From Afifella marina DSM 2698 (GTDB taxonomy: Bacteria; Pseudomonadota; Alphaproteobacteria; Rhizobiales; Afifellaceae): DNA of 64,000 nucleotides. A model generated the notes under the pieces. It was given only the letters and a program-made list of their open reading frames with translations. It was not told the origin of the DNA and made no database searches. A program made the position numbers and the translations under genes. Positions 32,469 through 42,506 of this stretch are shown piece by piece. The first letter of the stretch is position 1, and each line of letters opens with the position of its first letter. Location of the stretch: assembly GCF_900102695.1 (NCBI RefSeq), contig NZ_FMVW01000004.1, positions 124,001-188,000 on the forward strand, read 5' to 3'.

Positions 32469-32545
32469 CGGAGCGTAGCGCAGCCTGGTAGCGCACTTGC
32501 ATGGGGCGCAAGAGGTCGTGGGTTCGAATCCCGCCGCTCCGACCA
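32469..32545 (+). tRNA. tRNA-Pro (anticodon GGG)
   Basis: A 77-base cloverleaf can be drawn by hand. The acceptor arm is CGGAGCG with CGCTCCG. The D arm is GCGC..GCGC around AGCCTGGTA. The anticodon stem CTTGC/GCAAG encloses the loop ATGGGGC, giving anticodon GGG. The T arm is GTGGG-TTCGAAT-CCCGC, followed by A and an encoded CCA. The GGG anticodon reads proline codons CCC and CCU. It lies beside the merR-ihfA-fabH-plsX operon, on the opposite strand. Confidence 0.97.
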
Positions 32546-35783: not shown

Positions 35784-36341
35784 TCAGTTACTTTGCTGCT
35801 TCAGACGCTCCAATACGGCAAATGGCGACGCCTCCGCCGTATCATCCTCCACATGTTCCTTAAATTCCGCTCCTGCAACCCTCGGATAGGGGTCGAGACC
35901 AAGCGCCACATATTCGACGAGCAAGGCGCCGAGGTCGACCCTGTCTCCGAAATAGGGTTCCGTGTCCTCGGCCCCGTCGACTTCCACGTCGAAAGGATCG
36001 CTGGAGCGATCACCGTTCGCCTCGCCGCCGCCATCTCGGGATTCGCCGGGCTTGGGCGGCCGCAGGACAAGGTGCACATCTTCCGACACCTCTTCCTCTA
36101 GGGGCGTCAAAGTCACGACGCAACGCCGCGTCACACGGCCGGAAATGTGCGCCTCAACCCGGTAATGATCGCCCGCCATCGGCGTCACGCCGACCTCGGC
36201 AGAGAGATCTTCCACAGAGGGGATACCAAGCTGAGCGGCGATCTTTTCGCGCTCGGCGGGGGACGCCTCCAAATGCAGTTTGCGTCCCGAGGCGGGTATC
36301 TCGACCAGGCGCAGCGGCTTGGCGAAAGACGCGGTGTTCAT
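35784..36341 (-). CDS. DUF177 (YceD-like) protein
   Basis: YceD-family proteins are linked to 23S rRNA accumulation, and their gene is usually next to rpmF or plsX. The 185-residue product shows the C-terminal signature (VDLGALLVEYVALGLDPYPRVAGAEFKEHVEDD) and the central VEAHISGRVTRRCVVTLTPLEEEVSEDVHL. The paired cysteines of some family members are absent. No rpmF gene is adjacent. The ATG at 36341 follows the CBP3-like gene stop by one base, so these two are coupled. Confidence 0.9.
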   Translation of the reverse strand: MNTASFAKPLRLVEIPASGRKLHLEASPAEREKIAAQLGIPSVEDLSAEVGVTPMAGDHYRVEAHISGRVTRRCVVTLTPLEEEVSEDVHLVLRPPKPGESRDGGGEANGDRSSDPFDVEVDGAEDTEPYFGDRVDLGALLVEYVALGLDPYPRVAGAEFKEHVEDDTAEASPFAVLERLKQQSN

Positions 36342-36342
36342 T

Positions 36343-36891
36343 TTAACTGTTCTCCGCAACGAGGCTGATGGGGTCCGGGAATACGATGCGCCCATCTTTC
36401 AGGGTTGCACTGGGAACATCGTCCAGCCAGGCAAGCAGCGCACGCAGATATCGCGCCAGGCGCCGGGACGCACCCGAATCACTTTCTCCAACAAAGATAT
36501 TGCGTGCAATCGCACCTTCAAGCGCATCACCCTCTGCAGACAACGCTGAGCCATAAGCCCCGAGCCTGCCGCCATAGGAGGAAAAAAGCGTTTTCATCCG
36601 CTTTGGGATACGTCGATCGCTGACACCGATGTCTCGGTACGTGGCATCCATGTCGACGACAAAGGCTTCGGTGGTCAGCCGAGCAAGCTCAGGCTCTGGA
36701 TCCGGCCCGAAAGTGAGACGATGGACAACTGCGAAAAGATGCAGCGAGAGCATCTCAAAGCGACCGTCGACCGTGTCATCGACACCAAATTCTTCATAGA
36801 GTTGCGGATGACGCGAAGCTGCAGCCGTCGCGCCATAAAGTACCGCTGCGCGCTCGCGCTCCTGCCGTTTGCGGCTTTTAAACCAACCCAT
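36343..36891 (-). CDS. Ubiquinol-cytochrome c chaperone family protein (CBP3/UQCC1-like)
   Basis: The 182-residue protein matches the bacterial relatives of CBP3/UQCC1, which assist assembly of cytochrome b of the bc1 complex in mitochondria. Visible signatures are YGATAAASRHPQLYEEFGVDDTVDGRFEMLSLHLFAVVHRL, then FVVDMDATYRDIGVSDRRIPKRMKTLFSSYGGRLGAYGSAL and LEGAIARNIF. A bacterial assembly role is inferred from the family. It is first in the unit DUF177-plsX-fabH-ihfA-merR and is divergent from bamE. Confidence 0.9.
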   Translation of the reverse strand: MGWFKSRKRQERERAAVLYGATAAASRHPQLYEEFGVDDTVDGRFEMLSLHLFAVVHRLTFGPDPEPELARLTTEAFVVDMDATYRDIGVSDRRIPKRMKTLFSSYGGRLGAYGSALSAEGDALEGAIARNIFVGESDSGASRRLARYLRALLAWLDDVPSATLKDGRIVFPDPISLVAENS

Positions 36892-37001
36892 CGTGCGATC
36901 TATGCCCTTCTAAGCCTTCAAGACAATGCGGCAGAGCCCCGCGAAGGCCATTGCAATGCCGCATTCACCCCGCTAGCAAGCGGAGTTCAACGGGACCGCC
37001 A

Positions 37002-37442
37002 ATGACCAAAAAATCTCACGTTCTCGCCCTTCTCGTTTCGGTCGCCGCAGCCGGCGCCCTGGGGGGCTGCATCGGGCAAACCCAGCACCGCGGCTATATC
37101 GCCAACGAGCTCGCCCTGGAACAGATTCCGGAAGGATCTAGCCGCGACCAGGTGCTTATCGTGCTCGGCACCCCCTCCACGACGGCCGACTTCGGAGGCG
37201 AGGTGTTCTATTACATCTCGCAGACGGCTTCGCGACCTGTCGCCTTCTTGAACCCGCATATCGTCGACCAGCGCGTTCTCGCTGTCTATTTCGACAAGGA
37301 CCAGACGGTCACGCGCGTCGCGAATTACGGTTTGAAGGACGGCAAGGTCTTCGACTTCGTCTCTCGCACCACACCGACCGCCGGCAAGGACTTCTCGTTC
37401 GTGTCTCAGCTTCTGTCGGCTGCTGGACGGGTGGCGTTCTAG
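37002..37442 (+). CDS. bamE: Outer membrane protein assembly factor BamE (SmpA/OmlA family)
   Basis: BamE is a small lipoprotein of the BAM complex that inserts beta-barrel proteins. The 146-residue protein has a lipoprotein signal (VLALLVSVAAAGALGGC, lipobox LGGC). The SmpA/OmlA fold shows ALEQIPEGSSRDQVLIVLGTPSTTADFGGEVFYYISQTASRPVAFLNPHIVDQRVLAVYFDKDQTVTRVANYGLKDG. The ATG at 37002 is used; the frame extends upstream without a signal peptide. It is divergent from the CBP3-like gene, with 110 bases between starts. A structured region and a strong terminator follow. Confidence 0.93.
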   Translation: MTKKSHVLALLVSVAAAGALGGCIGQTQHRGYIANELALEQIPEGSSRDQVLIVLGTPSTTADFGGEVFYYISQTASRPVAFLNPHIVDQRVLAVYFDKDQTVTRVANYGLKDGKVFDFVSRTTPTAGKDFSFVSQLLSAAGRVAF

Positions 37443-37460
37443 ACACACGATGCCGCTCAT

Positions 37461-37530
37461 CGGCTAGCTTCAGCCGACCAAAGCTCCTGCGTGAAGAGCT
37501 TTGGTCGAGCGTTGCATCACGCAGGATCAA
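37461..37530 (+). ncRNA. Candidate structured RNA (pseudoknot-capable) downstream of bamE
   Basis: Three nested pairings fit the plus-strand RNA. A small stem pairs CGGCT (37461-37465) with AGCCG (37472-37476). An 11-bp perfect stem pairs GACCAAAGCTC (37476-37486) with GAGCTTTGGTC (37496-37506). The whole loop of that stem, CTGCGTGA (37487-37494), is complementary to TCACGCAG (37517-37524). The last pairing makes an H-type pseudoknot, with a 10-base crossing loop. A strong intrinsic terminator follows at once. This could be a 3'-UTR-derived small RNA or a structured transcript end. I do not match it to a named RNA family. Confidence 0.45.
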
Positions 37531-37535
37531 CAAAA

Positions 37536-37562
37536 GGCGGCCCCTATCTGGCCGCCTTTTTT
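37536..37562 (+). terminator. Strong intrinsic terminator
   Basis: GGCGGCC (37536-37542) pairs with GGCCGCC (37550-37556) around the loop CCTATCT and is followed by six T. AAAA precedes the stem, so it extends by A-T pairs and could also work on the other strand. It ends the bamE transcript and the putative structured RNA before it. Confidence 0.9.
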
Positions 37563-37904
37563 AGTGTCTGAGCCAATGGGCCGCTGGCCGAATTCGGCTC
37601 ATGCCCACGACATCTCGCGTTCTTCGCCCCGGCGATGGCGTCCCTCCCGCATTCAGCAGAACGTCAATATTTCTTATAATTATTTCCATTTTTAGTATAT
37701 AATACTATCACATTTGCTTGATTCTATATGTATTACGGGATTGATCACAATATACCCTTCCTCTATCTATTTTATGCTCTATTTTCTTCTCGGATCCGAT
37801 CCGTGAGGACTTATCTTCATCGTATGTACACTCACATTTCGGTGCTTCCTTAATATATCAATACAACGCAAACACCGTCATTCCCTGCGATGGAGGTTAA
37901 CACT
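37563..37904. promoter_or_regulatory. A+T-rich upstream segment of the orphan gene, with inverted repeat
   Basis: There is no gene in these 342 bases. From about 37660 to 37880 the sequence is strikingly A+T-rich compared with the GC-rich surroundings. It holds two TATAAT hexamers 17 bases apart (37675-37680 and 37698-37703) and a TTGATC/TATCTA pair (37741-37746 and 37764-37769, 17-base spacer). It also holds a 13-bp dyad CGGATC-C-GATCCG (37791-37803) whose flanks are partly symmetric. Promoters for the downstream gene probably lie here, and the dyad is an operator candidate. The ribosome binding site GGAGG is at 37892-37896. Confidence 0.5.
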
Positions 37905-38678
37905 ATGGCCACCGTAACGATCCCGCAAATCGTCGCCGAATGGATCCATGTCGTTCCTCGCCTATCCCGGACGGCAACCAGGCTCAGTGATGATGCCGCG
38001 GCCGCGACCGCACGCGGCTCAACTCTTGGGGATGACAATTCCGATCCCCAGGCCAATGGCACTGAGATCTACTCCGAGCCACAAAATCTCCCGACCGCGA
38101 TATCGAGCATCATGAACCATGCGCAGAAGCGCTCAAACTTTCACCCGGCCAGCAGTCCGCCAGAGGATCTCTATGAGCGATACAATGATTATATCACCGA
38201 GGTCGACGACACGCCTTTCTTTCATCTTGAGAAGCATGATTACGTCAAACAGACCTTCTATTCGAAGGACTACAACAAGCTGATCGATCAAGTCGTCAGC
38301 CTTTACGATTCGGTCAGCGCCGGAGACCAGGAGAAGCTCAAAGAGGATATCACCGACATGGCGAAATCAGTGTTCGGTGAAAGCAAGTCGGAGCAATGGC
38401 GCAATCTGTTTTCGCAGTCGACGATCGATTTCTCCAACCTCTCACGACCGCGCGTCTTTATTTATTATACGACGCTCTACATGCGCCACGAAGAGGACGG
38501 GAAATCGGAGGTCAATGAGCAGGAATACATGGTGCATCGGACCGAATATGCCGTGCTCTCCGACCTCATCCACGCTTATGCCAACGAGCTCGCAAGCCTC
38601 GACAAAACGTCGGTGGATGATTGGCTCGACGATTCGACGACGCCTGAAAAAGAAGACGCGGCGTTGTGCTTCAAATGA
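37905..38678 (+). CDS. Orphan protein of unknown function
   Basis: The 257-residue protein starts at an ATG with GGAGG at a good distance. I do not recognise a family. It is hydrophilic, rich in Ser, Asp, Glu and Tyr, with a poorly ordered Ala/Ser/Asp-rich N-terminal 70 residues. The rest looks helical (YVKQTFYSKDYNKLIDQVVSLYDSVSAGDQEKLKEDITDMAKSVFG, then WRNLFSQSTIDFSNLSRPRVFIYYTTLYMRHEEDG and YAVLSDLIHAYANELASLDKTSVDDWLDD). There is no signal peptide, membrane segment or known catalytic motif. The chain ends in Cys-Phe-Lys. The A+T-rich upstream, isolation from operons and flanking terminators suggest recent acquisition. An effector-like or stress role is possible but unsupported. Confidence 0.65.
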   Translation: MATVTIPQIVAEWIHVVPRLSRTATRLSDDAAAATARGSTLGDDNSDPQANGTEIYSEPQNLPTAISSIMNHAQKRSNFHPASSPPEDLYERYNDYITEVDDTPFFHLEKHDYVKQTFYSKDYNKLIDQVVSLYDSVSAGDQEKLKEDITDMAKSVFGESKSEQWRNLFSQSTIDFSNLSRPRVFIYYTTLYMRHEEDGKSEVNEQEYMVHRTEYAVLSDLIHAYANELASLDKTSVDDWLDDSTTPEKEDAALCFK

Positions 38679-39012
38679 GCCGGCGCGGATCGCGCAAAAT
38701 CCTTCGGGGCGACCTGGCCCGCGCAACCTGATGCCCCTCACGCCGTGCCCGGAGTGGTGGCCAAAACGTGCTGGCTCTGCGGATGATGATGCGCATTGAT
38801 GCGTCAAGCGCGACAGGCGTGCCGGGCCAAGGGGCGACCAGCCGCAAGTGCAATGGCGATCTACAACGACGATCCCGCCCTGAAAGCCTGCTTCTAGGTG
38901 GGGATACGGGGATAGTGTGGCCTCGTCTGACCACGACCAAGCGCTGGGCTGCAGACACAAAAAAGGCCCCGCGGCGTACCGCGGGGCCTCGTTTTTGTTT
39001 CGAGCAATCTGC
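38679..39012. other. Intergenic region between the orphan gene and hppA
   Basis: This 334-base stretch is GC-rich. It holds no convincing gene on either strand; the short frames have no ribosome binding site or recognisable motif. Its only clear element is the bidirectional terminator at its right end. Confidence 0.6.
38964..38989. terminator. Bidirectional intrinsic terminator (hppA and orphan gene)
   Basis: An 11-bp perfect stem (AGGCCCCGCGG, 38964-38974, with CCGCGGGGCCT, 38979-38989) has a CGTA loop. On the minus strand it is followed by TTTTTT, which ends hppA. On the plus strand it is followed by CGTTTTTG, which can end the orphan-gene transcript. Confidence 0.92.
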
Positions 39013-41127
<2,115 letters not shown>

Positions 41128-41279
41128 TGATTTCCCCCGGAAGATGGCCGGCGGATTGCCGACCGGGAATGGAGGCCGAACCCTCCGACAGAGCCGGGGG
41201 CGGCTTCCTGTATCGCGGCGGGGTATTGACGAAAGAACAAGCCCCGTCAAGGGCTGCAAAATCGCGCTACCCGCTTGGT

Positions 41280-42506
41280 TTAGCGGGACGCCTCCTGGCG
41301 ACCACGCCGCAAAAGAAGCAATGCAAGCCCAAGAAGAGCGACGACGGCGATCGGTATCACGGTCAGCGCCACTGCAGACCAGCCGCCGATAGACAGGATT
41401 TGACCGGAAGAAAACGAGGCCAGCGCCACCGTCGCAAAGACAAGCAGGTCGTTGAGGCCTTGCACCTTCTCCTTCTCGACCGGCTCATAAGTGCTTGCAA
41501 CAAGTGCTGTCGCGCCGAGAAACCCAAAATTCCAGCCAACGCCCAAAACAACGAGAGCGCCCCAGAAATTGATGAGATCTATGCCTTGAAAGGCGATGAA
41601 GCCGCACAGGATGAGAAGCACAAGTCCCGCCGCAACCACGCGCTCTGCTCCAAAGCGCAGGATCAATGACCCTGTAAAGAAGCTTGGAGCGAACATTGCG
41701 ATGACATGCCACTGGATGCCGAGAACCGCCGCATCGGTCGGAAAGCCGCAGCCGACCATCGCCAGCGGCGCGGCCGTCATCATCAAATTCATGAGGGCAT
41801 AGGCCGTCACGGCGCAGGCGACGGCCACGATGAAGCGTGGCTGCGCAGCAATCTTCCGCAACGGTCGTCCTGCATGGGTGTGGACGGCCGTCACGGCCGG
41901 AGCATGCAAGAACGCAAGAACAATTGCCGCAAGCACCATCAGTCCGGCAGCGCCGACATAAGCACCGACAAATTCGATCGGGAAAGCCGTGCGGGTGTGG
42001 ATGACGGTTTGAGGTCCGATAATGGCCGCCATCACGCCGCCGATCAGCACGTACGACATCGCCTTCGGCCGGAAGGATGGACTGGCCGTATCAGCGGCAG
42101 CGAAACGAAACTGCTGCACGAAGGCGGCGGTAAATCCCATCATGAAGACGCCGAGGCACAGGATTGGAAACGAGAAGACCGTGACGGCCACCGCTTCCAT
42201 GAGTGCGCCCATCGCGCCGATCAGCATTCCGCAGATGAGCCCGAAACGACGCCCGATTCGCCGCTGCAGCAGCGCGGCCGGCATGGTGCCGATCGCGGTG
42301 CCGACGACGAAGGCGCTGAGCGGCAAAGTCGCCCAGGACTTGTCCGGCCCCAAGAGCATGTGAGCCGCAAGCGAAGATATGGAAAAGTTGATCGGCGCTC
42401 CGGCGCCCGCAATGGCCTGAGCCGTGGCGAGGACCACCACATTGCGCCGGGCGACCCGGTTGTCCACTTGCGGGTGAAAGGCGGCGTCGGGGGAATTGTC
42501 CATCAA
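41280..42506 (-). CDS. Major facilitator superfamily transporter
   Basis: The 408-residue protein has about twelve transmembrane segments and the MFS loop 2-3 motif in a variant form ([25 protein letters not shown]). The substrate is unknown; the fold resembles small drug/metabolite MFS exporters. Its ATG overlaps the stop of thiL by four bases (ATGA), so it is translated with the nusB-thiL unit, an uncommon partner there. hppA lies downstream on the same strand. Confidence 0.85.

Follow-up and report, generated by a model that had tools for sequence, protein, structure and literature searches.

A structured 3' untranslated region with a possible pseudoknot and an intrinsic terminator behind bamE in Afifella marina

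Introduction

In Afifella marina DSM 2698, the end of bamE is followed by two perfect pairings that interlock and by a terminator. This raises the question of whether the stretch forms a special RNA element or is simply the 3' untranslated region (3'UTR) of the gene. We analyzed a window, that is, the whole stretch of 64,000 nucleotides from contig NZ_FMVW01000004.1, and all positions below are counted from its first letter. A preliminary description had proposed a pseudoknot-capable RNA element, possibly a small RNA derived from the bamE 3'UTR. We examined the locus in the source genome of the window (G000) and in other genomes of the same genus (G001, G002, G003 and G004), and we searched more distant genomes and databases. 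The results suggest that the stretch is probably an ordinary 3'UTR and not a new RNA element.

Results

The 3' end of bamE and its terminator

The bamE coding sequence (37002..37442, + strand, stop codon included) encodes BamE, an outer membrane assembly lipoprotein (Pfam PF04355, E 1.9e-17). The element lies directly 3' of this gene, and its earlier placement in the bamE 3'UTR was therefore correct. Relatives of bamE were found in 57 of 61 genomes and in all 11 family members examined, and the BamE of G001 is 99% identical to that of the window. When a second copy of the element was sought in its own genome, the locus itself was the sole match, and a search of a plasmid collection with the element gave no match.

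An intrinsic terminator stands behind bamE at 37532..37562 (+ strand), as had been described. Both sequence and fold reveal a GC-rich stem (37532-37542/37550-37560) with a T6 tract directly after it (37557-37562), and the structure is kept in three genomes: 11 of 11 stem pairs in G000, 11 of 11 in G003 and 10 of 11 in G001, where a C-G pair has become U-A. Given the number of changes, the chance of retaining this pairing was 0.17 in G003 and 0.017 in G001. The terminator is the best-kept part of the element in all three sister genomes, and no other helix has support in G001. A pattern-based terminator scan did not list the stem at 37532-37560 with its T6, probably because A-T pairs extend the stem into the T tract, as we interpret the scan rule. 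Like other intrinsic 3'UTR terminators, it consists of a GC-rich hairpin (37532-37560) and a T tract, lies 90 nt past the end of the stop codon, and has a helix that is compensated across the three genomes. It differs from them in that about 75 nt of structured RNA stand before it; according to PMC7821165, a UTR of 40-50 nt is enough for a terminator.

Interlocking helices and their chance expectation

We refer to the stem of hairpin P1 as S1, to the pairing of the P1 loop with a downstream strand as S2, to a nested closing helix as P0 and to a small upstream hairpin as H0, all on the + strand. The perfect 11-bp stem of the preliminary description is present, with GACCAAAGCTC at 37476-37486 paired to GAGCTTTGGTC at 37496-37506. 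C37475-G37507 makes a twelfth pair, so P1 (37475..37507) has up to 12 bp (37475-37486/37496-37507) and a 9-nt loop. The loop bases CTGCGTGA at 37487..37494, the 5' strand of S2, pair perfectly over eight bases with TCACGCAG at 37517..37524, which sequence and alignment mark as the 3' strand of a possible pseudoknot helix. Eleven bases separate 37524 from the GC part of the terminator, which starts at 37536. The small stem said to precede P1 also exists: H0 (37462..37475) has 4 bp (37462-37465/37472-37475) beside the 11-bp P1, and a longer form of up to 6 bp (37460-37465/37472-37477) becomes available once the first P1 pairs open. One competing helix was absent from the earlier account. P0 pairs 37449..37458 with 37507..37518, the latter arm carrying a TT bulge at 37512-37513, and because it takes the linker bases of the pseudoknot and two S2 pairs, P0 and the pseudoknot are mutually exclusive.

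Such a pair of perfect pairings had been thought unlikely to arise by chance. Among 637 copies of the 64 kb window drawn from a first-order Markov model and read on both strands, S1 of at least 11 bp with S2 of at least 8 bp occurred once, which upholds the claim for one window; the figure refers to a single window with a site chosen by eye, and about 60 stretches of this length fit into the 3.96 Mb genome. Looser combinations were more frequent, with 14 cases of S1≥11 with S2≥6 and 593 of S1≥8 with S2≥6 in the 637 copies, the real window having three of the latter. In the 1,552,696 strand-bases of 80 related loci, S1≥8 with S2≥6 was seen at 41 places; S1 reached at least 11 bp at two of these, and at neither was it joined by S2≥8. 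The rarity of the structure in the window counts against reading it as an ordinary 3'UTR. It also argues against a near-neutral coincidence, in which a chance inverted repeat would lie beside the terminator and G000 and G003 would share it through close kinship only, a reading that we regard as quite improbable and to which we return with the comparison of genomes.

As a separate observation, 20 of the 41 background places were read out, and 19 of these were one coding motif of hppA (H_PPase, PF03030; 39013-41259, - strand), which lies within 40379-40563. The DNA of this motif forms pseudoknot-like repeats that yield false positives in pseudoknot scans.

Comparison with sister genomes

The element is recognizable in three of the five genus genomes examined (G000, G001 and G003). 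By eye, no copy was found after bamE in G002, G004 and six other family members, nor did any model match above 10 bits appear there. The two helices of an H-type pseudoknot can form in the window (12 + 8 bp) and in G003 (10 + 7 bp). It had been proposed that the stems be checked for conservation and covariation in relatives, and the outcome was divided. G003 keeps both: its P1 has 10 contiguous pairs with one compensatory C-G to U-A change, and its S2 has 7 pairs with one C-G to U-A change that depends on the placement of an inserted T; in MAFFT columns, six of the eight S2 pairs hold. G001, on the other hand, has only a core of 7 contiguous P1 pairs, its S2 is down to 3-4 bp, and no S1≥6 with S2≥5 was found in it. 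Covariation was judged here on three sequences, a number that gives R-scape no power. The H-type pseudoknot is not kept in all relatives, being retained in G003 and lost in G001. That G001 has lost S2 despite its nearly identical BamE counts for an ordinary 3'UTR. The other helices varied as well. H0 in its longer form keeps six of six pairs in G003, with G-U changes, and three of six in the aligned columns of G001. P0 keeps 8 of 10 pairs in G003 and is lost in G001 (4 of 10), and this loss counts against the ordinary 3'UTR as we picture it.

We then measured this retention against 20,000 random mutants with as many changes as G003 (9 substitutions and 1 insertion), under the assumption that every site changes at the same rate and with cut-offs fixed at the values seen in G003. 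Only 5 of the 20,000 retained S1≥10 and S2≥7, the level of G003, and this retention of both helices counts against an ordinary 3'UTR. In the comparison with G001, an S1 of 7 bp was kept by 2.7% of random mutants, so the P1 core argues against the coincidence introduced above. That coincidence gains, however, from the tests that take into account how many changes each helix carries: those on P1 (0.13), S2 (0.17) and P0 (0.09) were not significant in G003, where H0 gave 0.06, and pair retention in G001 was no better than random (P1 0.64, S2 0.70). Identity over P1 and S2 between G000 and G003 is 42/50, close to that at fourfold sites of bamE (71/88), whereas it is far lower in the spacer past the terminator (184/326); this greater likeness of the UTR speaks against coincidence. 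Between G000 and G001, the whole UTR is identical at 78/118 positions, below their fourfold sites (69/87). The UTR in G003 is therefore held better than the spacer, though not better than silent sites. Its advantage over the spacer points to some constraint and counts against an ordinary 3'UTR; the identities close to or below those of fourfold sites count for one.

Competing folds

Over its full 136 nt, terminator included, the stretch has a folding energy of -62 kcal/mol (z -6.08). The minimum free energy fold of the stretch without the terminator (-36.0 kcal/mol, z -3.86) is a three-way junction of P0, H0 and P1. When the S2 strands and the linker were held free, the remainder folded at -25.0 kcal/mol. 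To this we added about -12 kcal/mol for a 6-bp S2, consisting of the computed duplex energy of -7.9 with the initiation term added back, and a pseudoknot penalty of +7 to +10 kcal/mol. The shortened S2 follows from steric rules, a point that the earlier account also lacked: because the first loop base directly follows the P1 stem, S2 would be limited to about 6 bp, with about two distal pairs opened. Beside an S1 of 11-12 bp, a 6-bp S2 with loops of 2, 1 and about 9-10 nt is sterically possible. The sum is about -28 to -30 kcal/mol, a rough estimate. On this estimate, the nested fold would be favored over the pseudoknot in the window. The element thus resembles H-type pseudoknots, such as the IBV frameshift pseudoknot, in its two interlocking helices, but differs from them in being estimated as weaker than the nested fold in the window and in not being conserved in G001; unlike the IBV pseudoknot, it stands after a stop codon and has no slippery site by eye.

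The sister genomes folded differently. The pre-terminator stretch of G003 did not fold better than shuffled sequences (z -0.31). For the 51-nt core as well as the 123-nt UTR of this genome, the best fold pairs the S2 strands as a plain hairpin that replaces P1. In G001, the corresponding stretch forms one long bulged hairpin (-32.0 kcal/mol, z -1.55). No single nested fold is common to G000, G001 and G003, and this, together with the poor fold of G003, counts against an ordinary structured 3'UTR. All three UTRs retain an intact terminator hairpin in their best folds.

Searches beyond the genus

A covariance model, R1, was built from P1 and the terminator of the three sequences and searched against 297 genomes with stricter filters, taking at most 13 first-look candidates per genome. 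G000, G003 and G001 scored 118.6, 120.8 and 102.1 bits, as they must by construction, and the next best match had 40.4 bits. The model search that had been suggested thus recovered the three sister genomes, but the other 294 of the 297 gave nothing above that score. Matches at E≤0.001 occurred in at least 32 genomes. When the seven matches ranking next after the sister genomes were aligned, they agreed most, by eye, in the terminator; two of them, L121 and L124, can form small interlocking pairs (S1 17/S2 5 and S1 8/S2 6, respectively), and the L124 match is not located near the bamE of its genome. The P1 core, searched as a pattern, was found in six of the 297 genomes (G000, G003, G039, G145, G158 and G257), at bamE in G000 and G003; both of its places in G039 are away from bamE. 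Pseudoknots with S1≥7 and S2≥6 lay within 200 nt past bamE in 5 of 110 loci (L001, L003, L019, L048 and L061), a set that includes some genomes twice (e.g., L004 and L032). We take L048 to resemble the end of an insertion sequence. In Rfam searches with E up to 10, nothing credible appeared, the best by score over 37400-37620 being SCARNA20 (23.8 bits; cut-off 44).

These searches bear on whether the 3'UTR yields a trans-acting sRNA. Such an RNA would arise through RNase E cleavage of the bamE mRNA or from an internal promoter, would end at the terminator and would have P1, with or without the pseudoknot, as its body. The stable fold, the terminator with its T6 tract and the retention of P1 and S2 in G003 are consistent with such an sRNA, and 3'UTR-derived sRNAs are attested in alphaproteobacteria (PMC7821165), SorX from Rhodobacter sphaeroides being one example. 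Against it, Rfam at gathering score found only a tRNA in the window (32469-32542) and no family for the element, no covariance-model match above 40.4 bits extended beyond the three genomes, and P1 and S2 are degraded in G001. Further, no + strand sigma-70-like site was found in 36900-38000, where the two sites present are both on the - strand, although this is a weak test in alphaproteobacteria. Bacterial 3'UTRs diverge fast even within a genus, and several functional ones are unconserved in close relatives (PMC7821165); for this reason, missing deep conservation alone does not exclude an sRNA. Our literature search found nothing on Afifella sRNAs. We consider an sRNA unlikely here, though by no means far-fetched.

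The region downstream of the terminator

The preliminary description held that no gene directly downstream would be under attenuation, and we agree: the next plausible + strand gene begins 328-343 nt past the T tract. A hairpin, a possible pseudoknot and a terminator in series look like an attenuator, and in the window the frame that continues past the bamE stop codon stays open for 42 codons, across the terminator. The element might therefore be imagined as controlling the downstream gene in cis, as an attenuator or a riboswitch, or as promoting stop-codon readthrough or frameshifting where bamE ends. However, the downstream gene lies across an AT-rich spacer (43% GC vs 62% in the window) and was not found in G001, which has the UTR, and the terminator hairpin does not give way in any of the three best folds. 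The post-stop frame closes early, within 20 codons in G003 and within 7 in G001, and we rejected readthrough and frameshifting. Taken as a whole, regulation in cis is scarcely credible.

The downstream gene itself is an orphan in the interval between bamE and hppA (37890-38678, + strand; about 257-262 aa, with a likely start at ATG 37905 after GGAGG), and the spacer upstream of it has 33% GC over 37660-37880. It was present in 2 of 199 genomes (G000 and G003, 92% identical). Neither Pfam nor NCBIfam gave its protein a family above the cut-off, a phage collection held no match to it, and its structure was predicted with low confidence (mean pLDDT 41.7). The gene may be a lineage-specific insertion. 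We also observed that over 38957-42000, the hppA region on the - strand, G000 is closer to G001 (97.0%) than to G003 (93.2%), whereas over 36002-36950 it is closer to G003 (90.4%) than to G001 (86.6%). In these alignments, the switch of nearest relative suggests recombination, although hppA is also simply better conserved.

Discussion

The pairings are there, the terminator is there and is conserved in three genomes, S2 is lost in G001, and no recognizable copy exists beyond the sister group among the genomes searched. The idea of a special pseudoknot RNA element was not carried by the comparison, given the loss of S2 in G001, the estimated advantage of the nested fold and the lack of a match above 40.4 bits outside the sister genomes. 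Structured, quickly diverging 3'UTRs that end in intrinsic terminators are common, and on balance we think it likely that the stretch is an ordinary, fast-evolving, lineage-specific bamE 3'UTR with a hairpin that stabilizes the 3' end and an intrinsic terminator. The compensated terminator helix of the three sister genomes and the stable nested fold in the window speak for this reading as well. In such a 3'UTR, RNA polymerase would leave at the terminator around 37562. The pre-terminator stretch would exist in this species mainly as the nested three-way junction of P0, H0 and P1, and in G001 as a long hairpin with bulges that carries the P1 core at its tip. Most likely, the structured stretch would serve only as a barrier to 3' exonucleases and as a spacer between the stop codon and the terminator. 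Pairing into the pseudoknot would be a minor or alternative fold in two sister species that is not maintained in the third.

A bolder proposal is that a lineage-specific bamE 3'UTR RNA switches between the P0 three-way junction and the S2 pseudoknot and acts in trans as an sRNA that, in some Afifella species, connects the assembly of the outer membrane with envelope stress; we find this very doubtful. SorX of Rhodobacter sphaeroides and CpxQ of Salmonella likewise come from the 3' end of a protein-coding mRNA, are structured and end in a terminator, but the present element, a candidate at most, is recognizable only in three sister genomes. We know of no earlier link between the 3'UTR of a BAM-complex gene and RNA regulation, and a stable RNA derived from bamE, if true, would be the first. 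If instead the stretch is an ordinary 3'UTR, the finding has little importance in itself; it would mean that perfect interlocking pairings in one genome may, by our estimate, be outcompeted by a nested fold and may be lost in a sister species.
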